Shown: positions 12,235 to 45,178 of the stretch, in pieces
Numbering within the stretch: the first letter of the stretch is position 1
Layout of the letters: every line of letters starts with the position of its first letter
Assembly: GCA_017395935.1 (NCBI GenBank)
Contig: JAFQNL010000021.1
Location: forward strand, 1 to 45,243
DNA: 45,243 nucleotides
Source: Oscillospiraceae bacterium
GTDB lineage: Bacteria > Bacillota > Clostridia > Oscillospirales > Oscillospiraceae
Reading direction: 5' to 3'
The notes under the pieces: generated by a model
Told to the model about the DNA's origin: nothing
The model's input: only the letters and a program-made list of their open reading frames with translations
Databases searched by the model: none
Program-made: the position numbers and the translations under genes

Positions 12235-13833
12235 ATGATCACTGTTACCGACCTGAGCCTCCAGTACACCGGACAGAGCCTGTTCAAGGATGTAGACCTG
12301 CAGTTCGTTAAGGGCAACTGCTACGGCATTATCGGTGCCAACGGCGCGGGCAAGTCCACCTTTCTGAAGATCCTCTCCGGCCAGCTGGAGCCTACCAGCG
12401 GCGAGATTTCCATCCTGCCCAATACCCGGATGTCCATCCTGAAGCAGGATCAGAACGCCTACGACGCCTACAACGTGATGGACACGGTCATTATGGGCAA
12501 TCAGCGGCTGTATGATATCGGCCAGCAGAAGGACGCCCTCTACGCCAAAGAGGAGATGACCGACGAGGACGGCATGCTGGCCTGCGAGCTGGAGGCTGAG
12601 TACGCCGATCTGGGTGGCTGGGAGGCCGAGAGCGACGCCAGCCGGATTCTTCAGGGTCTTGGAATCGGCACCGAGTACCACTACAGCGACATGGCCACGC
12701 TGGACGCCCGGCTGAAGGTGAAGGTGCTGCTGGCGCAGGCCCTCTTCGGCAATCCCGATATCCTGATGATGGACGAGCCCACCAACAACCTGGATATTGA
12801 CGCGGTGAACTGGCTGGAGGACTTCCTGCTGGATTTCGAGGGCACAGTCATCGTCGTCAGCCATGACCGCCACTTCCTGAATACCGTCTGCACCCATATT
12901 GTGGATATCGACTACAATAAAATCAAGATGTATGTGGGCAACTACGACTTCTGGTACGAATCCTCCCAGCTGGTCCAGCAGCTGGTTAAGAACCAGAACA
13001 AGCGTAACGAGGAGAAGATCCGGGAGCTGCAGGACTTTATCTCCCGCTTCTCGGCCAACAAGTCCAAGAGCAAGCAGGCGACCGCCCGCCGGAAGCTGCT
13101 GGACAAGCTGACGCTGGCCGAGATCCCCGCCTCCTCCCGCCGGTATCCCTTCGTGGGCTTCTCCCCTGACCGGGAGGTGGGCAAGGATATCCTCTTTGTC
13201 ACCGACGTGAGCAAGACCATTGACGGTGTCAAGGTGCTGGACAAGGTCTCCTTTATCGTTGAGCACGGGGACAAGATTGCCTTCGTCGGCGACAACGAGA
13301 ACGCCCATACCGCCCTGTTCAAGATTCTGGCCGGCGAGATGGAGCCGGATGAGGGCACGGTCAAGTGGGGTCAGACCGCTACCCACTCCTATTTCCCCAA
13401 AGACAACAACGCCTACTTTGACGGCTGCGACGACGATCTGGTTCAGTGGCTGCGCCAGTTCTCCCGGGATCCTCAGGAGCAGTATCTCCGGGGCTTCTTG
13501 GGCCGGATGCTCTTCTCGGGTGACGAGGTGAACAAGCCGGTAAAGGTCCTCTCCGGCGGCGAGAAGGTTCGGTGTATGCTCTCCCGGATGATGCTGTCAG
13601 GAGCCAATGTGCTTATGCTGGATCAGCCCACCAACCATCTGGATCTGGAGTCCATCGCCGCGCTGAACAAGGGTCTGGAGGCGGTCAATTGCAATATCCT
13701 GCTGGCCTCCCATGACCACCAGCTCATTGAGACCGTCTGCAACCGGGTCTTTGACTTTACCAACGATGGCAAACTCATTGACCGGAAGATGAGCTATGAC
13801 GACTATCTGGCCAGCCAGGTGAAGAAGAGCTGA
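12235..13833 (+). CDS. ABC-F ATPase (YbiT/YkpA-like) with one degenerate ATP site
   Basis: A 532-residue soluble protein with two ABC domains and no membrane part; ABC-F proteins act on the ribosome. The start is the ATG behind AGAAGGAG. Domain 1 has Walker A GANGAGKST and Walker B LMMDEPTNNLD, but the expected LSGGQ signature is replaced by TLDARLKVKVLL. Domain 2 has an intact LSGGEK signature, but Walker A is GDNENAHT (His for the catalytic Lys) and Walker B ends LMLDQPTN (Gln for the catalytic Glu). ABC sites pair Walker A of one domain with the signature of the other. So site 1 is intact and site 2 has lost its three key parts together. Switch histidines are kept (VVSHDRHF, LASHDHQL). An interdomain linker rich in Lys/Arg (ANKSKSKQATARRKLL) is present. 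A methyltransferase gene follows closely. Confidence 0.93.
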   Translation: MITVTDLSLQYTGQSLFKDVDLQFVKGNCYGIIGANGAGKSTFLKILSGQLEPTSGEISILPNTRMSILKQDQNAYDAYNVMDTVIMGNQRLYDIGQQKDALYAKEEMTDEDGMLACELEAEYADLGGWEAESDASRILQGLGIGTEYHYSDMATLDARLKVKVLLAQALFGNPDILMMDEPTNNLDIDAVNWLEDFLLDFEGTVIVVSHDRHFLNTVCTHIVDIDYNKIKMYVGNYDFWYESSQLVQQLVKNQNKRNEEKIRELQDFISRFSANKSKSKQATARRKLLDKLTLAEIPASSRRYPFVGFSPDREVGKDILFVTDVSKTIDGVKVLDKVSFIVEHGDKIAFVGDNENAHTALFKILAGEMEPDEGTVKWGQTATHSYFPKDNNAYFDGCDDDLVQWLRQFSRDPQEQYLRGFLGRMLFSGDEVNKPVKVLSGGEKVRCMLSRMMLSGANVLMLDQPTNHLDLESIAALNKGLEAVNCNILLASHDHQLIETVCNRVFDFTNDGKLIDRKMSYDDYLASQVKKS

Positions 13834-17243: not shown

Positions 17244-17317
17244 AGCGGGATTGTGTAAGGGTAGCACAGCAGACTCTGACTCTGTATGTGAGGGTTCGAA
17301 TCCTTCTCCCGCTGCCA
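17244..17317 (+). tRNA. tRNA-Gln (anticodon CTG)
   Basis: Acceptor AGCGGGA pairs with TCCCGCT, discriminator G and an encoded CCA. The anticodon stem GCAGA/TCTGT encloses the loop CTCTGAC, giving CUG for codon CAG. The T-arm loop is TTCGAAT. It is a single-gene transcript with its own promoter and terminator. Confidence 0.92.
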
Positions 17318-17322
17318 TAATG

Positions 17323-17365
17323 ATTGACTCATAAGTCTACCAAGACTTGTGAGTCAATTTTCTTT
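17323..17365 (+). terminator. Terminator of tRNA-Gln
   Basis: A 16-bp stem with one mismatch (ATTGACTCATAAGTCT with AGACTTGTGAGTCAAT) followed by TTTTCTTTT. Confidence 0.88.
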
Positions 17366-17483
17366 TGCCATTCTGTTGGGAGCAAGCCGGGAATCTGGCG
17401 GCAAGGGTTCGTGCTATCAGGCGGAAAGCCGGCGGGAACGCGGAACCGCGCTCGCCGCAGCGGCTGGGCAGGGCGGGAAGGAA

Positions 17484-17513
17484 TTGACACTCTCCCCCTC
17501 CGCATGATATACT
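17484..17513 (+). promoter_or_regulatory. Promoter of the CplR-like ABC-F leader
   Basis: TTGACA (17484-17489), an 18-bp spacer and TATACT (17508-17513). It predicts a leader of about 220 bases before the ABC-F start. The 118 bases between the tRNA terminator and this promoter hold no gene I can support. Confidence 0.75.
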
Positions 17514-17544
17514 CTGGGCAGAAACCAGAGAAAAGAGTGAGAGA

Positions 17545-17556
17545 ATGCGCAAGTAA
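17545..17556 (+). CDS. Three-codon upstream ORF (Met-Arg-Lys), putative
   Basis: ATG CGC AAG TAA, about 25 bases downstream of the predicted transcription start and overlapping the 5' strand of the leader's closing stem. A purine-rich GAGTGAGAG lies upstream as a weak Shine-Dalgarno. In another frame a GTG-initiated 12-codon ORF (17537-17575, peptide ending KLSFAS) covers the same place and cannot be excluded. Either would put a ribosome on the helix strand at the right moment to alter folding. Coding is inferred from position only. Confidence 0.4.
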   Translation: MRK

Positions 17557-17690
17557 GCTTTCGTTCGCGTCATGAGAAATCTGTGCCGGAAGGCCCATCG
17601 AGCAGATGGGTCCGGGCCGTCGTGACCGAAGGTGAGCTTACTGTGAAGGCGGGAGAAGCGTTTTCTCCTGCCGGCCTTTCGTCACATGGG

Positions 17691-17721
17691 AGCCTGCCTT
17701 CGTTATGAGGGCAGGCTTTTT
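17691..17721 (+). terminator. Intrinsic terminator inside the ABC-F leader
   Basis: AGCCTGCC (17691-17698) pairs perfectly with GGCAGGCT (17710-17717), followed by TTTTT. It lies 12 bases before the AAAGGAG Shine-Dalgarno of the ABC-F gene, so it must be overcome for expression. Confidence 0.88.
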
Positions 17722-17742
17722 GCATCACGAAAGGAGCCATTC

Positions 17743-19284
17743 ATGTTTCAAGTCAAACAGCTCACCATTACACATAAAAAAGACCTGACCACACTGGTGG
17801 AAGATCTCTCCTTCTCCCTGCTTCCCGGAGACCGGGCCGCTCTCATCGGTGAGGAGGGCAACGGCAAGTCCACCCTTCTGCGTCTGTTGGCCGATCCGGC
17901 GCTGGTCAGTGGCTATGCCGACTGGACCGGCCAGCTCCCCTCTCCCCGGCTTCGCCGGGGCTATCTGGCCCAGGAGCTGAGTCAGGAGGAACTGGCTCTG
18001 CCGGTGTATGACTTCTGCTGCCGGTGGGCGGGTTTTTCCGCCGCCGATCCCCGGAGTCTCAGCCGGGCCGGCCGCCAGACCGGCCTCCCCCTTGACCTGT
18101 TTTACGACGGGCGGCCTATGGCTACCCTTTCCGGCGGAGAGCGGGTCAAGCTCCGGCTGGCACTGCTTCTGCTGGAGGAGCCGGATATTCTGCTGCTGGA
18201 CGAGCCCTCCAACGATCTGGATCTTGCCACCCTCCGGTGGCTGGAGTCCTTTCTCCTCTCTCTGTCTGTACCCGTTCTCTTCGTCTCCCATGATGAAGGT
18301 CTGCTGGAGCATACGGCCAATCTGATCATCCATCTGGAGCGGCTCCGTCGCCGGACTAGGCCTCGGTCCGTCCTGATCCGGTCGGGCTACCGGGACTATG
18401 TGGCCCGGCGGAGCGCTGACTTTGATCGTCAGAGCCAGCAGGCCCGGAAAGAGGAGCGGCAGTATCAGCAGAAAATGGACCGATATCGTCAGATCCGCAG
18501 CAAGGTAGAGCATCAGCAGGCTACCATCAGCCGTCAGGACCCCCACGGCGGCCAGCTGCTGAAAAAGAAAATGCACGCGGTAGAGTCCATGGGCCGCCGC
18601 TTTGAACGGGAACGGGAGCAGATGACCCAAATGCCCGAATGGGAGGAGGCTATCGTTACCTTTTTCGACCCTCACCGCTCGGCAATCCCCGCCGGGAAGG
18701 AGGTTCTCCGACTGGAGCTGCCTCGACTGGAGGTGGGTAACCGGCTGCTGGCCCGGAATCTCTCCCTCCATGTAATCGGCCCGGAGCGGATCGGTGTGAT
18801 CGGTCCCAACGGGGTGGGCAAGTCCACTCTGCTCAAGGAGATCGCTCAGCACCTGCTGCCCCGGCAAGACCTCCGCTGCGCCTATATGCCTCAGGACTAT
18901 GGCGACAGTCTGGCGGCTCAGCGCTCGCCGGTAGAGATTCTGGCCCCTTCCGGGCATCGGGAAGAGGTGACCCGGGCCCGAACCCTGCTGGGCGCTATGA
19001 AGTACAAGGCAGAGGAGATGGAGCATCCCGCCTCCGGCCTCTCCGGGGGTCAGCGGGCAAAGCTGCTCTTTCTGTCCATGGTGCTGGCCGGGAGCAATGT
19101 CCTGCTGCTGGATGAACCCACCCGGAACTTCTCTCCCCTGTCGGCCCCGGTGATCCGCCGGGTCCTGGCCGATTTTCCCGGGACGATTATCAGCGTCTCC
19201 CACGACCGGGTCTATCTCCGGCAGGTCTGCACCCGGCTGCTGGAGCTGACGCCGGAGGGACTCCGGGAGGTCGGGGAGCAATAG
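17743..19284 (+). CDS. ABC-F ribosome-protection ATPase, CplR-like
   Basis: A 513-residue soluble tandem ABC protein starting at the ATG behind AAAGGAG. Domain 1: Walker A GEEGNGKST, signature TLSGGERVKL, Walker B LLLDEPSNDLD. Domain 2: Walker A GPNGVGKST, signature GLSGGQRAKL and the unusual Walker B extension LLLDEPTRNFSP. A charged coiled-coil interdomain linker (about residues 240-310, RKEERQYQQKMDRYRQIRSK) would reach the ribosomal exit site and peptidyl-transferase region. The opening QLTITHKKDL and the NFSP motif match, from memory, the clostridial CplR group. CplR proteins dislodge pleuromutilin, lincosamide and streptogramin A drugs from the ribosome. The attenuator leader fits drug induction. 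Both ATP sites look intact. The resistance spectrum is inference. Confidence 0.85.
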   Translation: MFQVKQLTITHKKDLTTLVEDLSFSLLPGDRAALIGEEGNGKSTLLRLLADPALVSGYADWTGQLPSPRLRRGYLAQELSQEELALPVYDFCCRWAGFSAADPRSLSRAGRQTGLPLDLFYDGRPMATLSGGERVKLRLALLLLEEPDILLLDEPSNDLDLATLRWLESFLLSLSVPVLFVSHDEGLLEHTANLIIHLERLRRRTRPRSVLIRSGYRDYVARRSADFDRQSQQARKEERQYQQKMDRYRQIRSKVEHQQATISRQDPHGGQLLKKKMHAVESMGRRFEREREQMTQMPEWEEAIVTFFDPHRSAIPAGKEVLRLELPRLEVGNRLLARNLSLHVIGPERIGVIGPNGVGKSTLLKEIAQHLLPRQDLRCAYMPQDYGDSLAAQRSPVEILAPSGHREEVTRARTLLGAMKYKAEEMEHPASGLSGGQRAKLLFLSMVLAGSNVLLLDEPTRNFSPLSAPVIRRVLADFPGTIISVSHDRVYLRQVCTRLLELTPEGLREVGEQ

Positions 19285-19429: not shown

Positions 19430-20467
19430 ATGGCAAAGAAAAAGTCCCGGAACGCTCGCCGCGGACGGTCCCGGAAGGGCTCTGGGGTCTCTGCTCAGGT
19501 CTGGCGGCGCTTTCTGCCTCAGAGCACAGCCGAGTGGATCATTCTGGTCTTTTTCCTGCTCTGCGCCCTCTTTCTCTTCTATCAGCCCCAGCTGGAGCAG
19601 CTGGTGGACCGGGTCTCCCACTCTCCGCTGGCTCCCGACCTCTCCCACCGTCAGCCGGCTCAGGCCCCTCTCCCCGATCAGGAGCTGTCTCTCACCGTCC
19701 ACTTTCTGGACGTGGGGCAGGGAGACGCGACTCTGCTGATCAGCGGAGATGAGCGTATGCTTATCGATGGCGGCGACCGTGCCGCCGGCGAGTCGCTGGT
19801 TTCCGATCTGGACCGGCTGGGTATCACCCATCTGGACTATCTGGTAGCCAGTCATTCTCACGAGGATCATATAGGTGGTCTGCCCCGGGTGCTGGAGGCG
19901 GTGAGTGTGGAGCGATGTATCCTCTCCGATGACGTGGCCGAGACCAATATCTATACCCGGCTGCTGGAGGGGCTGGAGGCTGGCGGCGTGGCCGTTACCA
20001 TCCCTCAGGCAGGAGAGAGCTTTTCCTTCGGAGACTGTACGGTGACCATTCTGGGGCCGCTGCGGGTCTCTGAGGAGCATAACGAGAACTCACTGGTTAT
20101 GATGGTCTCCTGCGGCGAGGCCGACTATCTGTTTACCGGCGACATGGAGGGGCAGGAAGAGGAGGATATGCTCATCTACTGCAACGACCTGAGGGCTGAG
20201 GTGCTCAAGGTGTCCCACCATGGGTCAGAATACACCTGCGGCGAGGACTTTCTGGACTTTGTGGACCCGGAAGTGGCCATTATCTCCTGCGGTGCCGACA
20301 ACAGCTACGGCCACCCCAACCAGCCGCTGCTGGACCGGCTGGCAGATCGGGAGATTGGCGTTTACCGGACCGATCTGCGGGGCGATATCACCCTGACCAC
20401 TACCGTCACCGAAGAGGGGACTGAGACAAGAGTCCGCTGTGAGCGGCAGGAGGAGGCCCGCCCATGA
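19430..20467 (+). CDS. ComEC/Rec2-like metallo-beta-lactamase fold hydrolase
   Basis: A 345-residue protein with a very basic N-terminus (KKKSRNARRGRSRKG), one membrane helix (about residues 36-54, WIILVFFLLCALFLFYQP) and an extracytoplasmic hydrolase domain. The domain resembles the C-terminal part of competence protein ComEC. Motifs: VHFLDVGQGDATLL, the metal-binding ASHSHEDHIGG (HxHxDH), FTGDME, LKVSHHGSEY and GHPNQPLLDRL. Stand-alone proteins of this type are thought to be nucleases or phosphodiesterases outside the membrane. The next gene, DUF3006, overlaps its stop (ATGA), a known pairing. No competence operon is in the window. Confidence 0.9.
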   Translation: MAKKKSRNARRGRSRKGSGVSAQVWRRFLPQSTAEWIILVFFLLCALFLFYQPQLEQLVDRVSHSPLAPDLSHRQPAQAPLPDQELSLTVHFLDVGQGDATLLISGDERMLIDGGDRAAGESLVSDLDRLGITHLDYLVASHSHEDHIGGLPRVLEAVSVERCILSDDVAETNIYTRLLEGLEAGGVAVTIPQAGESFSFGDCTVTILGPLRVSEEHNENSLVMMVSCGEADYLFTGDMEGQEEEDMLIYCNDLRAEVLKVSHHGSEYTCGEDFLDFVDPEVAIISCGADNSYGHPNQPLLDRLADREIGVYRTDLRGDITLTTTVTEEGTETRVRCERQEEARP

Positions 20468-44242: not shown

Positions 44243-44315
<73 letters not shown>

Positions 44316-44318
44316 ATA

Positions 44319-44395
44319 TGGCGACCCGGAACGGGCTCGAACCGTCGACCTCTAGCGTGACAGGCTAGCGTTCTAACCAACTGAACTACCGGGCC
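44319..44395 (-). tRNA. tRNA-Asp (anticodon GTC)
   Basis: Acceptor GGCCCGG with CCGGGTC, discriminator G and an encoded CCA. Anticodon loop CTGTCAC gives GUC. Only three bases separate it from tRNA-Thr. Confidence 0.95.
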
Positions 44396-44435
44396 ATATA
44401 TATGTAAACGGGAGAGATCCCGAATACAGACGAAA

Positions 44436-44508
44436 CAGGGGCAGAAGGAATCGAACCCTCGGCACGCGGTTTTGGAGACCGCTGCTCTACCTGCTGAGCT
44501 ATACCCCT
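44436..44508 (-). tRNA. tRNA-Trp (anticodon CCA)
   Basis: Acceptor AGGGGTA with TGCCCCT, discriminator G. Anticodon loop CTCCAAA gives CCA. The 3' CCA is not encoded. Confidence 0.95.
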
Positions 44509-44551
44509 ATAAATCAGAGGCCCATCAGGCGCCCCACCGCATACTGCTGAG

Positions 44552-44625
44552 TGGGCCTTCACGGGCTCGAACCGTGGACCGTCCGGTTATGAGCCGGATG
44601 CTCTAACCAATTGAGCTAAAGGCCC
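44552..44625 (-). tRNA. tRNA with CAT anticodon (Ile2 or elongator Met)
   Basis: Acceptor GGGCCTT with AAGGCCC, discriminator A, anticodon loop CTCATAA. The body (CCTTTAGCTCAATTGGTTAGA and GGCTCATAACC) resembles Firmicute tRNA-Ile2, whose C34 is changed to lysidine to read AUA, more than elongator tRNA-Met. The assignment is not certain from sequence. CCA is not encoded. Confidence 0.9.
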
Positions 44626-44645
44626 AAAGGCTTTTACAGAAAAGC

Positions 44646-44673
44646 GCCGCCACGTGGCTGACCGCGTGGCGGC
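44646..44673 (-). terminator. Terminator-like hairpin inside the tRNA cluster
   Basis: GCCGCCACG pairs with CGTGGCGGC, followed on the minus strand by GCTTTTC, between tRNA-Asn and the CAT tRNA. It may be a partial terminator or a processing site. Confidence 0.45.
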
Positions 44674-44684
44674 ACCTTCTGAAG

Positions 44685-44760
44685 TGGCTCCCCAAGTAGG
44701 ACTCGAACCTACGACCCTGCGGTTAACAGCCGCATGCTCGACCGACTGAGCTATTGAGGA
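44685..44760 (-). tRNA. tRNA-Asn (anticodon GTT)
   Basis: Acceptor TCCTCAA with TTGGGGA (one T-G pair), discriminator G and an encoded CCA. Anticodon loop CTGTTAA gives GUU. It directly follows 5S rRNA. Confidence 0.95.
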
Positions 44761-44790
44761 ATATCGAAAGGTTTTACAACCTTTCTGGAT

Positions 44791-44905
<115 letters not shown>

Positions 44906-44977
44906 TACTTCTCTTAAAAGGGAAGTAAACAAAGAAGAAGGTTTCTTCTCTCTTTACCGCTCTTTTCAACAGTAGCT

Positions 44978-45006
44978 ATTGTACTCTTTTCACTCTCACA
45001 TGTCAA
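44978..45006 (-). promoter_or_regulatory. Promoter of the 5S-tRNA transcript
   Basis: Minus strand: TTGACA (45006-45001), a 17-bp spacer and TACAAT (44983-44978), about 70 bases before 5S, between tRNA-Glu and 5S. Confidence 0.75.
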
Positions 45007-45027
45007 GTACTTTTTCAATTTTTTTAA

Positions 45028-45099
45028 TGACCCGTGGGAGAGTCGAACTCCCGTTTGCGGCGTGAGAGGCCGCCGTCTTGACCACTTGACCAACGGGCC
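45028..45099 (-). tRNA. tRNA-Glu (anticodon CTC)
   Basis: Acceptor GGCCCGT with ACGGGTC, discriminator A. Anticodon stem GCGGC/GCCGC around CTCTCAC gives CUC for GAG. No CCA is encoded. Confidence 0.93.
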
Positions 45100-45105
45100 A
45101 TCTAG

Positions 45106-45178
45106 TACACCTTCAGGGACTCGAACCCTGGACACCCTGATTAAGAGTCAGGTGCTCTACCAACTGAGCTAAAGGTGC
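45106..45178 (-). tRNA. tRNA-Lys (anticodon CTT)
   Basis: Acceptor GCACCTT with AAGGTGT (G-U first pair), discriminator A. Anticodon stem CCTGA/TCAGG around CTCTTAA gives CUU for AAG. The 65 bases before it contain a TTGTTCAGTTTTGAG stretch like rRNA-operon spacers, so a larger rRNA gene may lie beyond the window edge. Confidence 0.94.

Follow-up and report, generated by a model that had tools for sequence, protein, structure and literature searches.

Short leader ORFs are described as controlling several ABC-F genes. In Bacillus subtilis, the vmlR leader (219 nt) contains a three-codon upstream ORF (uORF) encoding MIN; the peptide MRK, found in other Bacilli, also functioned as the uORF when tested, though less well than MIN (PMC9226507). 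Arrest at initiation has been argued for this leader and NusG pausing has been shown (PMC9226507). The leader of lmo0919 (vgaL) in Listeria monocytogenes, Rli53, is reviewed as giving a terminated RNA of 207 nt, with read-through upon addition of lincomycin (PMC8079631). The 212-nt cplR leader of Clostridioides difficile has the uORF MR[I/M] and is described as using transcription and translation attenuation together; a uORF consensus is described in the same paper for VmlR, VmlR2 and LsaA, the LsaA uORF having four codons (PMC10201436). For are5sc of Streptomyces coelicolor (uORF MLV), toeprinting placed arrest by lincosamide, streptogramin A and pleuromutilin, but not by erythromycin, at the start codon (PMC12421871). 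For tiaA, with a uORF of nine codons, a toeprint at the start codon is also reported; the reporters used there gave no support to switching at the level of transcription (PMC12421871).

The window, the whole stretch of DNA analysed here, comprises 45,243 nt from an Oscillospiraceae bacterium. In it, a leader of about 220 nt lies between a tRNA-Gln gene (17244-17317) and a gene for a 513-residue ABC-F ATPase (17743-19284, + strand), identified by translation and by motif and profile searches. In layout, rather than by direct sequence comparison, this leader is like that described for vmlR: it has an anti-antiterminator over the uORF, an antiterminator with an apical hairpin, a terminator and a hairpin hiding the Shine-Dalgarno sequence, its uORF has three codons, and its peptide, MRK, is the variant tested in vmlR. 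With lmo0919/Rli53 it shares a three-amino-acid ORF overlapping an anti-antiterminator/antiterminator arrangement (PMC8079631), with cplR a very short uORF and, on the reading below, the joint use of transcription and translation attenuation (PMC10201436), and with are5sc a three-codon uORF (PMC12421871). The differences from these systems are partly in the proteins. The window ABC-F belongs to a different protein group from VmlR, it scores 195 bits where the cut-off for Vga, the type encoded by lmo0919, is 725, and it reaches 146 of the 780 bits for CplR; are5sc encodes an ARE5 protein, in an actinobacterium. In addition, the terminator hairpin described for cplR holds the Shine-Dalgarno sequence of the gene, whereas the window uses a separate outer helix.

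The features common to attenuators of the vmlR/Rli53/cplR type, namely a mini-ORF, an overlapping helix, an exclusive antiterminator and a terminator, were all found, the antiterminator more clearly in the leader family than in the window alone. To judge from sequence, the window leader appears to work like these attenuators and is grouped with them. An earlier, sequence-only reading of this DNA had matched the architecture to no known riboswitch class; the three-codon ORFs in the leader switches of vmlR, lmo0919/Rli53 and cplR are precedents for it. The literature searched (main texts, with few subscription journals among them) contained no account of such a leader before ABC-F genes of this group, and the relevant passages on uORF4u (PMC10219788) and on premature terminators (PMC2965389) do not mention it. 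This design of resistance control is known; what is new is its place on an ABC-F group that fits no named resistance family.

Parts and predicted folds of the window leader

All parts of the leader are on the + strand. A sigma-A-type promoter with an extended -10 (TTGACA-18-TATACT) is present at 17484-17513 and is the sole promoter-like site found by a scan of 17300-17800, where 0.2 would be expected in shuffles; transcription would start near 17520. The mini-ORF, ATG CGC AAG TAA (Met-Arg-Lys-stop, 17545-17556), has its ATG 31 nt from the -10 and is preceded by a Shine-Dalgarno region (GAGTGAGAGA, 17535-17544), assigned by reading of the sequence and by comparison with relatives, which have a corresponding ORF. 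The Shine-Dalgarno sequence in the window is GAGTGA, of the GTGA type, and many relatives have GGTGA. The promoter, the leader of about 220 bases and the three-codon ORF proposed in the sequence-only reading are thereby confirmed.

Codon 3 and the stop codon of the mini-ORF are covered by strand 1 (17552-17575), the 5' side of the anti-antiterminator, which was delineated from folds and covariation. Roughly half of strand 1 would lie under the footprint (to about +16) of a ribosome held at the mini-ORF start codon. The anti-antiterminator has an apical hairpin of 8 bp (17592-17612, pairing 17592-17599 with 17605-17612), again from folds and covariation. Strand 2, the switch strand (17620-17642), has as its partner either strand 1, giving the anti-antiterminator, or strand 3, giving the antiterminator, according to folds, pairing tests and covariation. 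A stable 10-bp hairpin (17648-17672, pairing 17648-17657 with 17663-17672) stands between the switch strand and the terminator; it lies within the antiterminator and contains a copy of CCTGCC (17667-17672).

The intrinsic terminator (17688-17721) is made up of strand 3 (17688-17701), strand 4 (17707-17720) and a U-tract (17717-17721). It has 14 bp in the fold, and a separately scored form gave -21.9 kcal/mol. A simple terminator scan did not list it, presumably owing to the overlap of its stem and U-tract; that scan gave one site elsewhere, with 0.6 expected. Outside it, the full-length fold pairs an anti-Shine-Dalgarno sequence (CCTTTCGT, 17675-17682) with 17727-17734. The ABC-F gene has the Shine-Dalgarno sequence AAAGGAG at 17730-17736, and the predicted helix 17675-17682/17727-17734 would hide part of this ribosome-binding site.

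The folding energy of the 233-nt leader was -114.3 kcal/mol, compared with -77.7 ± 4.6 kcal/mol for 200 shuffles (z = -7.9). In the free-RNA fold, the long-range stem that had been noticed at 17552-17559/17635-17642 was recovered with one further pair, as a helix of 9 bp (17552-17560/17634-17642) that covers the 3' end of the mini-ORF. This basal helix is extended by 17564-17567/17627-17630 and 17569-17575/17620-17626 and is capped by the hairpin 17592-17599/17605-17612. The 3' part of the fold consists of the hairpin 17648-17657/17663-17672, the terminator 17688-17701/17707-17720 and the outer helix 17675-17682/17727-17734; the further hairpins and the intrinsic terminator of the sequence-only reading were thus found in the folds (17592-17612, 17648-17672 and 17688-17721).

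It is very probable that the leader is a ribosome-mediated transcription and translation attenuator which senses ribosome-blocking antibiotics through arrest at or just after the start codon. We infer from the sequence that the mini-ORF is translated, that a drug can arrest the ribosome on it, which drugs these are, and that read-through follows. Without drug, a ribosome would translate Met-Arg-Lys and depart, strand 1 and the switch strand would pair, the terminator would form and transcription would end before the ABC-F gene; in any RNA arising from leaky read-through, the Shine-Dalgarno sequence would be kept in a hairpin. A pleuromutilin-, lincosamide- or streptogramin A-type drug would halt the ribosome at or just after the start codon, where it would cover strand 1. 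The freed switch strand would then capture the terminator's 5' arm co-transcriptionally, 17627-17638 pairing with 17691-17702. RNA polymerase would then read through, and the ABC-F protein would be made and would clear the ribosome.

Recurrence of the mini-ORF in orthologue loci

With the leader DNA used directly as the query, the window itself was the sole match among 98 genomes, and orthologues were therefore sought via the protein. Protein searches gave ABC-F orthologues of 37-72% identity overall: in 2 of 59 relatives (E 1e-60), in the order (36 of 394 genomes) and the class (23 of 391; both at E 1e-90), and in 52 of 400 genomes of the family (E 1e-120), each count including the window's own genome and the four genome sets overlapping. 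The window ABC-F was absent from all 31 other genomes of the genus (protein search, E 1e-60). Among the 37 loci from a protein search of genome contigs, three are at 49-53% identity, and the named relatives in this search were labelled Clostridiales, Christensenella and Erysipelotrichaceae. Homologues in a plasmid collection were all below 60% identity, and at 27-31% in the 40 matches listed. The comparisons below use 77 orthologue loci, the window included. One of these (L070) begins within the gene, without usable upstream DNA, and was counted as a miss; outside the 77 are 22 further family-set orthologues and six order-set orthologues without a retrieved locus.

Inspection of the upstream DNA revealed a mini-ORF of 3-5 codons at the corresponding place in 57 of the 77 loci and none in the other 20. 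These 57, being picked by eye, are a less neutral count than the 48 of 77 obtained by a strict rule (promoter score, Shine-Dalgarno sequence, ATG or GTG 20-58 nt after the -10, and 3-5 codons); the ORF chosen by the rule differs from that chosen by inspection in three of the 48 (L062, L081 and L103). Under the same rule, distant ABC relatives (34 loci, a few of which may have real leaders) gave a mini-ORF at 7 of 386 promoter-like sites; the figures were 6 of 410 for such sites in the orthologue loci outside the leaders and 0 of 39 in the rest of the window. The background rate at promoter-like sites is 1.5-1.8%; as loci and sites are different units, the enrichment is approximate.

The mini-ORF has three codons in 40 of the 57 leaders, four in 15 and five in two. 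A Shine-Dalgarno-like stretch accompanies these ORFs, most of which follow the -10 by about 25-50 nt; GTG or TTG starts occur in a few. The peptides are of 34 different kinds, MRK being the commonest (11). A variable peptide, with the length and place of the ORF kept, is as expected for arrest at initiation. As for geometry, strand 1, when scanned from +3 on, begins to pair 3-14 nt from the A of the ATG in all 42 leaders used for the pairing tests, and on average half of its pairs fall at or before +16. The toeprint edge reported for vmlR is at about +16 (PMC9226507), and a ribosome with its front there would cover these pairs.

The peptides themselves bear on another explanation, in which stalling on Met-Arg-Lys or on its stop codon would depend on the nascent tripeptide together with a particular drug. 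Macrolides cause peptide-specific stalling of this kind on some longer leaders. The second residue here is most often Arg (19/57) and the last most often Lys or Arg (32/57), and the strength of vmlR induction is reported to vary with the peptide, MRK being weaker than MIN (PMC9226507). Such arrest is nevertheless unlikely, as the 34 peptides at the corresponding place include MIL, MHA, MIG and MII, and the features that are kept are the length of the ORF, its position and the overlapping helix. Arrest at or just after the start codon is the preferred reading, and the 34 natural peptides allow one to ask what the sensor needs beyond ORF length and position.

Some leaders depart from the common form. 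Four (L061, L065, L066 and L068) combine four-codon ORFs (MTNK, MTIK, MFNK) with long terminators that are interrupted by internal loops; they are seemingly another structural type, from other families of the order. The leaders L050 and L052, both from genus g143, have the mini-ORFs MFA and MLK and no recognisable terminator near the gene. By eye, GTGCGCAT in these two could pair with ATGCGCA at the gene start, which suggests translation-only control.

The specificity of the leader was assessed with the pattern GGTGANNNNATGCGCAARTAA (a Shine-Dalgarno sequence plus ATGCGCAARTAA). It matched in 7 of 295 genomes of the order, in all seven cases before ABC-F genes, and the reversed pattern had 0 matches among the rows listed. 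Leaders of this kind, searched here in one exact form that the window's own copy (GAGTGA) does not match, might help to pick out drug-inducible ABC-F genes from sequence. Five of the seven genes are orthologues of the window gene and two are best matched by the Lsa family, with 607.9 and 548.8 bits (cut-off 750) on sequence cut off by the locus end. At these Lsa-type genes (L117:1501-1704, and L119, reverse strand, before the gene at 1303-2), a Shine-Dalgarno sequence and a Met-Arg-Lys-stop ORF are followed by a terminator-like hairpin; one is in another genus of the window's family and the other in another family of the order. Six viral contigs containing the mini-ORF pattern were rejected, as they have one common stretch which by eye holds no leader of this kind.

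Mutually exclusive pairings

Covariation was analysed in nine close leaders (the window, L041, L090, L042, L043, L092, L088, L089 and L091). For the anti-antiterminator, 95.3% of cells are standard pairs, compared with only 31-40% paired cells in slid structures, and 6 of 24 pairs are changed on both sides. Within the basal helix, five sequences have AU and four have GC at one pair, and another pair occurs in four types. The covariation score was 0.317 against 0.217 ± 0.017 in shuffles. On four of five covariation measures none of 500 shuffles, which ignore relatedness, was as high; the fifth, further pair types, gave 19 against 17.2 and was reached by 57 of the 500.

The antiterminator duplex, between the switch strand and the terminator arm, has 16-23 bp in all nine close leaders despite the differing sequence of the arm. 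Between L042 and L092, for instance, a U-to-C change in the terminator arm is accompanied by A-to-G changes in both the switch strand and the 3' arm of the terminator; in the same comparison the switch strand is also without one bulged A. In seven of the nine leaders, cognate duplexes averaged -28.1 for the antiterminator and -27.5 for the anti-antiterminator, where non-cognate duplexes gave -20.0, the cognate partner being the single best in only 3 of 7 and 2 of 7 rows. The attenuator is real and conserved: the sequences show its parts and their recurrence in relatives, the first helix covaries, and the mutually exclusive pairings are visible at sequence level. Both the ORF and the long stem recur in the leaders of orthologues, the stem with compensatory changes, which supports the translation-coupled attenuator that the sequence-only reading had proposed before the ABC-F gene.

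For pairing tests over a wider set, a terminator could be assigned in 50 of the 57 mini-ORF leaders, in eight of them by hand (with no shuffle control), and 42 of the 50 were non-redundant. Left out were seven leaders with no assignable terminator (L050, L052, L069, L071, L084, L085 and L104) and eight near-identical ones (L043, L059, L066, L077, L080, L082, L090 and L097). The mini-ORF-overlapping strand paired with its own middle region at -21.4 kcal/mol, compared with -14.4 kcal/mol for foreign strands, and the terminator arm at -21.0 kcal/mol, compared with -15.9 kcal/mol for foreign arms. When one helix set the switch strand and the other was tested against it, the cognate values were -20.0 and -17.8 kcal/mol against non-cognate values of -12.3 and -10.7 kcal/mol, respectively. 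All four tests gave p = 5e-5, which is the floor of 20,000 permutations. The cognate partner was the single best in few rows (7/42 and 6/42, and 11/42 with the defined switch strand).

Against shuffled middle regions, strand 1 had a mean z of -3.1, with 32 of 42 leaders below -2, and the terminator arm a mean z of -2.1, with only 19 of 42 below -2. The binding sites of the two strands overlap in 35 of 42 leaders; the shuffles gave 23.4 ± 4.3, with a highest value of 33 in 40 runs, and the overlap is only moderately in excess of them. A test of whether strand 3 copies strand 1 gave no support for this (cognate 10.1, otherwise 9.7, p = 0.15).

In the window RNA, the antiterminator formed in the predicted fold when the footprint 17533-17561 was blocked and the RNA was ended at the terminator loop. 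It consisted of 17627-17634/17695-17702 and 17636-17638/17691-17693 and enclosed 17642-17646/17682-17686 and the hairpin 17648-17672. When the whole leader was folded at equilibrium with the footprint blocked, the terminator fold prevailed, so antitermination must be kinetic, following the order of synthesis.

In the window itself, the terminator arm has as its best free duplex partner the hairpin region 17648-17672, not the switch strand, and its z against shuffled middles is only -0.66; the window is also one of the 7 of 42 leaders with less than 5 nt of overlap between the two sites. Tested against the switch strand that strand 1 defines, the window arm pairs at -20.8 kcal/mol, a value that 2 of 41 non-cognate arms equal or better. 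The antiterminator pairing is supported for the leader family and weak in the window taken alone.

A different switch had been suggested from the sequence. CCTGCC does occur both at 17667-17672 and at 17693-17698, and GGCAGG had been proposed to alternate between the two copies. This was set aside because all four folds keep the copy at 17667-17672 within a 10-bp hairpin of its own; the alternative pairing that recurs in relatives corresponds here to 17627-17638 with 17691-17702. In the window, the opposite arm of this hairpin is the best free partner of the terminator arm.

The outer helix allows for the possibility that control is purely translational, with the terminator minor and the Shine-Dalgarno sequence hidden by 17675-17682/17727-17734. 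That helix is present in the full-length fold, and cplR is described as combining transcription and translation attenuation (PMC10201436). With a terminator assigned in 50 of 57 mini-ORF leaders (with no shuffle control), and with a terminator arm that pairs with the switch strand, exclusive control of translation is rather improbable, and the combined transcription and translation attenuator is preferred. It is highly improbable that the leader senses a metabolite or tRNA (as a riboswitch or T-box) with the mini-ORF incidental: its strong structure (z = -7.9) and the tRNA-Gln gene preceding the ABC-F gene would suit such a role, but the covariance-model check put forward in the sequence-only reading gave no match to a known riboswitch or T-box at gathering score in Rfam 15 (the four matches of a permissive search, E up to 10, all being far below it and at chance level), the mini-ORF is found in 48 of 77 leaders against less than 2% of promoter-like sites elsewhere, and the first helix overlaps the mini-ORF.

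The ABC-F protein and its neighbourhood

Walker A, LSGG and DEP motifs can be seen by eye in both halves of the 513-residue protein. Its best sequence match in the PDB (1.9e-52) is 8buu, described as the structure of VmlR2 (PMC10201436). No NCBIfam model exceeded its cut-off among the 25 listed of 186 matching families, the scores in bits (with cut-offs) being ribo_prot_ABC_F 261 (380), Vga 195 (725), EttA 186 (599), Uup 177 (900), CplR (NF043038) 146 (780) and Lsa 116 (750). The sequence-only reading had called the protein CplR-like; ribo_prot_ABC_F and Vga fit better, and that description does not hold. The EttA, Uup and YbiT-type models, at 177-186 bits, are nearly level with Vga, so close that this similarity cannot by itself tell a resistance ABC-F from a housekeeping one.

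On these profile scores the window protein is an ABC-F of no named subfamily. Its control region and its similarity to ribosome-protection models suggest that it may protect the ribosome. We see about even chances that the ABC-F group is a new antibiotic-resistance subfamily, mostly under initiation-arrest sensors of 3-5 codons in which the peptide is almost free. The analysis extends a known control design from the few genes studied to an ABC-F group that is named by no curated model listed. If the proteins do protect ribosomes, surveys that use the current curated models would miss a group of inducible resistance genes in Clostridia-like bacteria.

Some 4 kb upstream lies a second ABC-F gene (12235-13833, + strand), YbiT-like by eye. 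The ribosome-protection model gives 188.8 and 145.1 bits for its two halves, below the cut-off, and no mini-ORF leader was seen by eye in the roughly 100 nt before its start. For the flanking gene at 19430-20467, no empty site was found in its three best relatives (L167-L169, loci of 2.6-3.7 kb): these loci lacked a tRNA, and none of the three other genes compared had a match there. Near the contig end, the window carries seven tRNA genes and a 5S rRNA gene (44243-45178, - strand).
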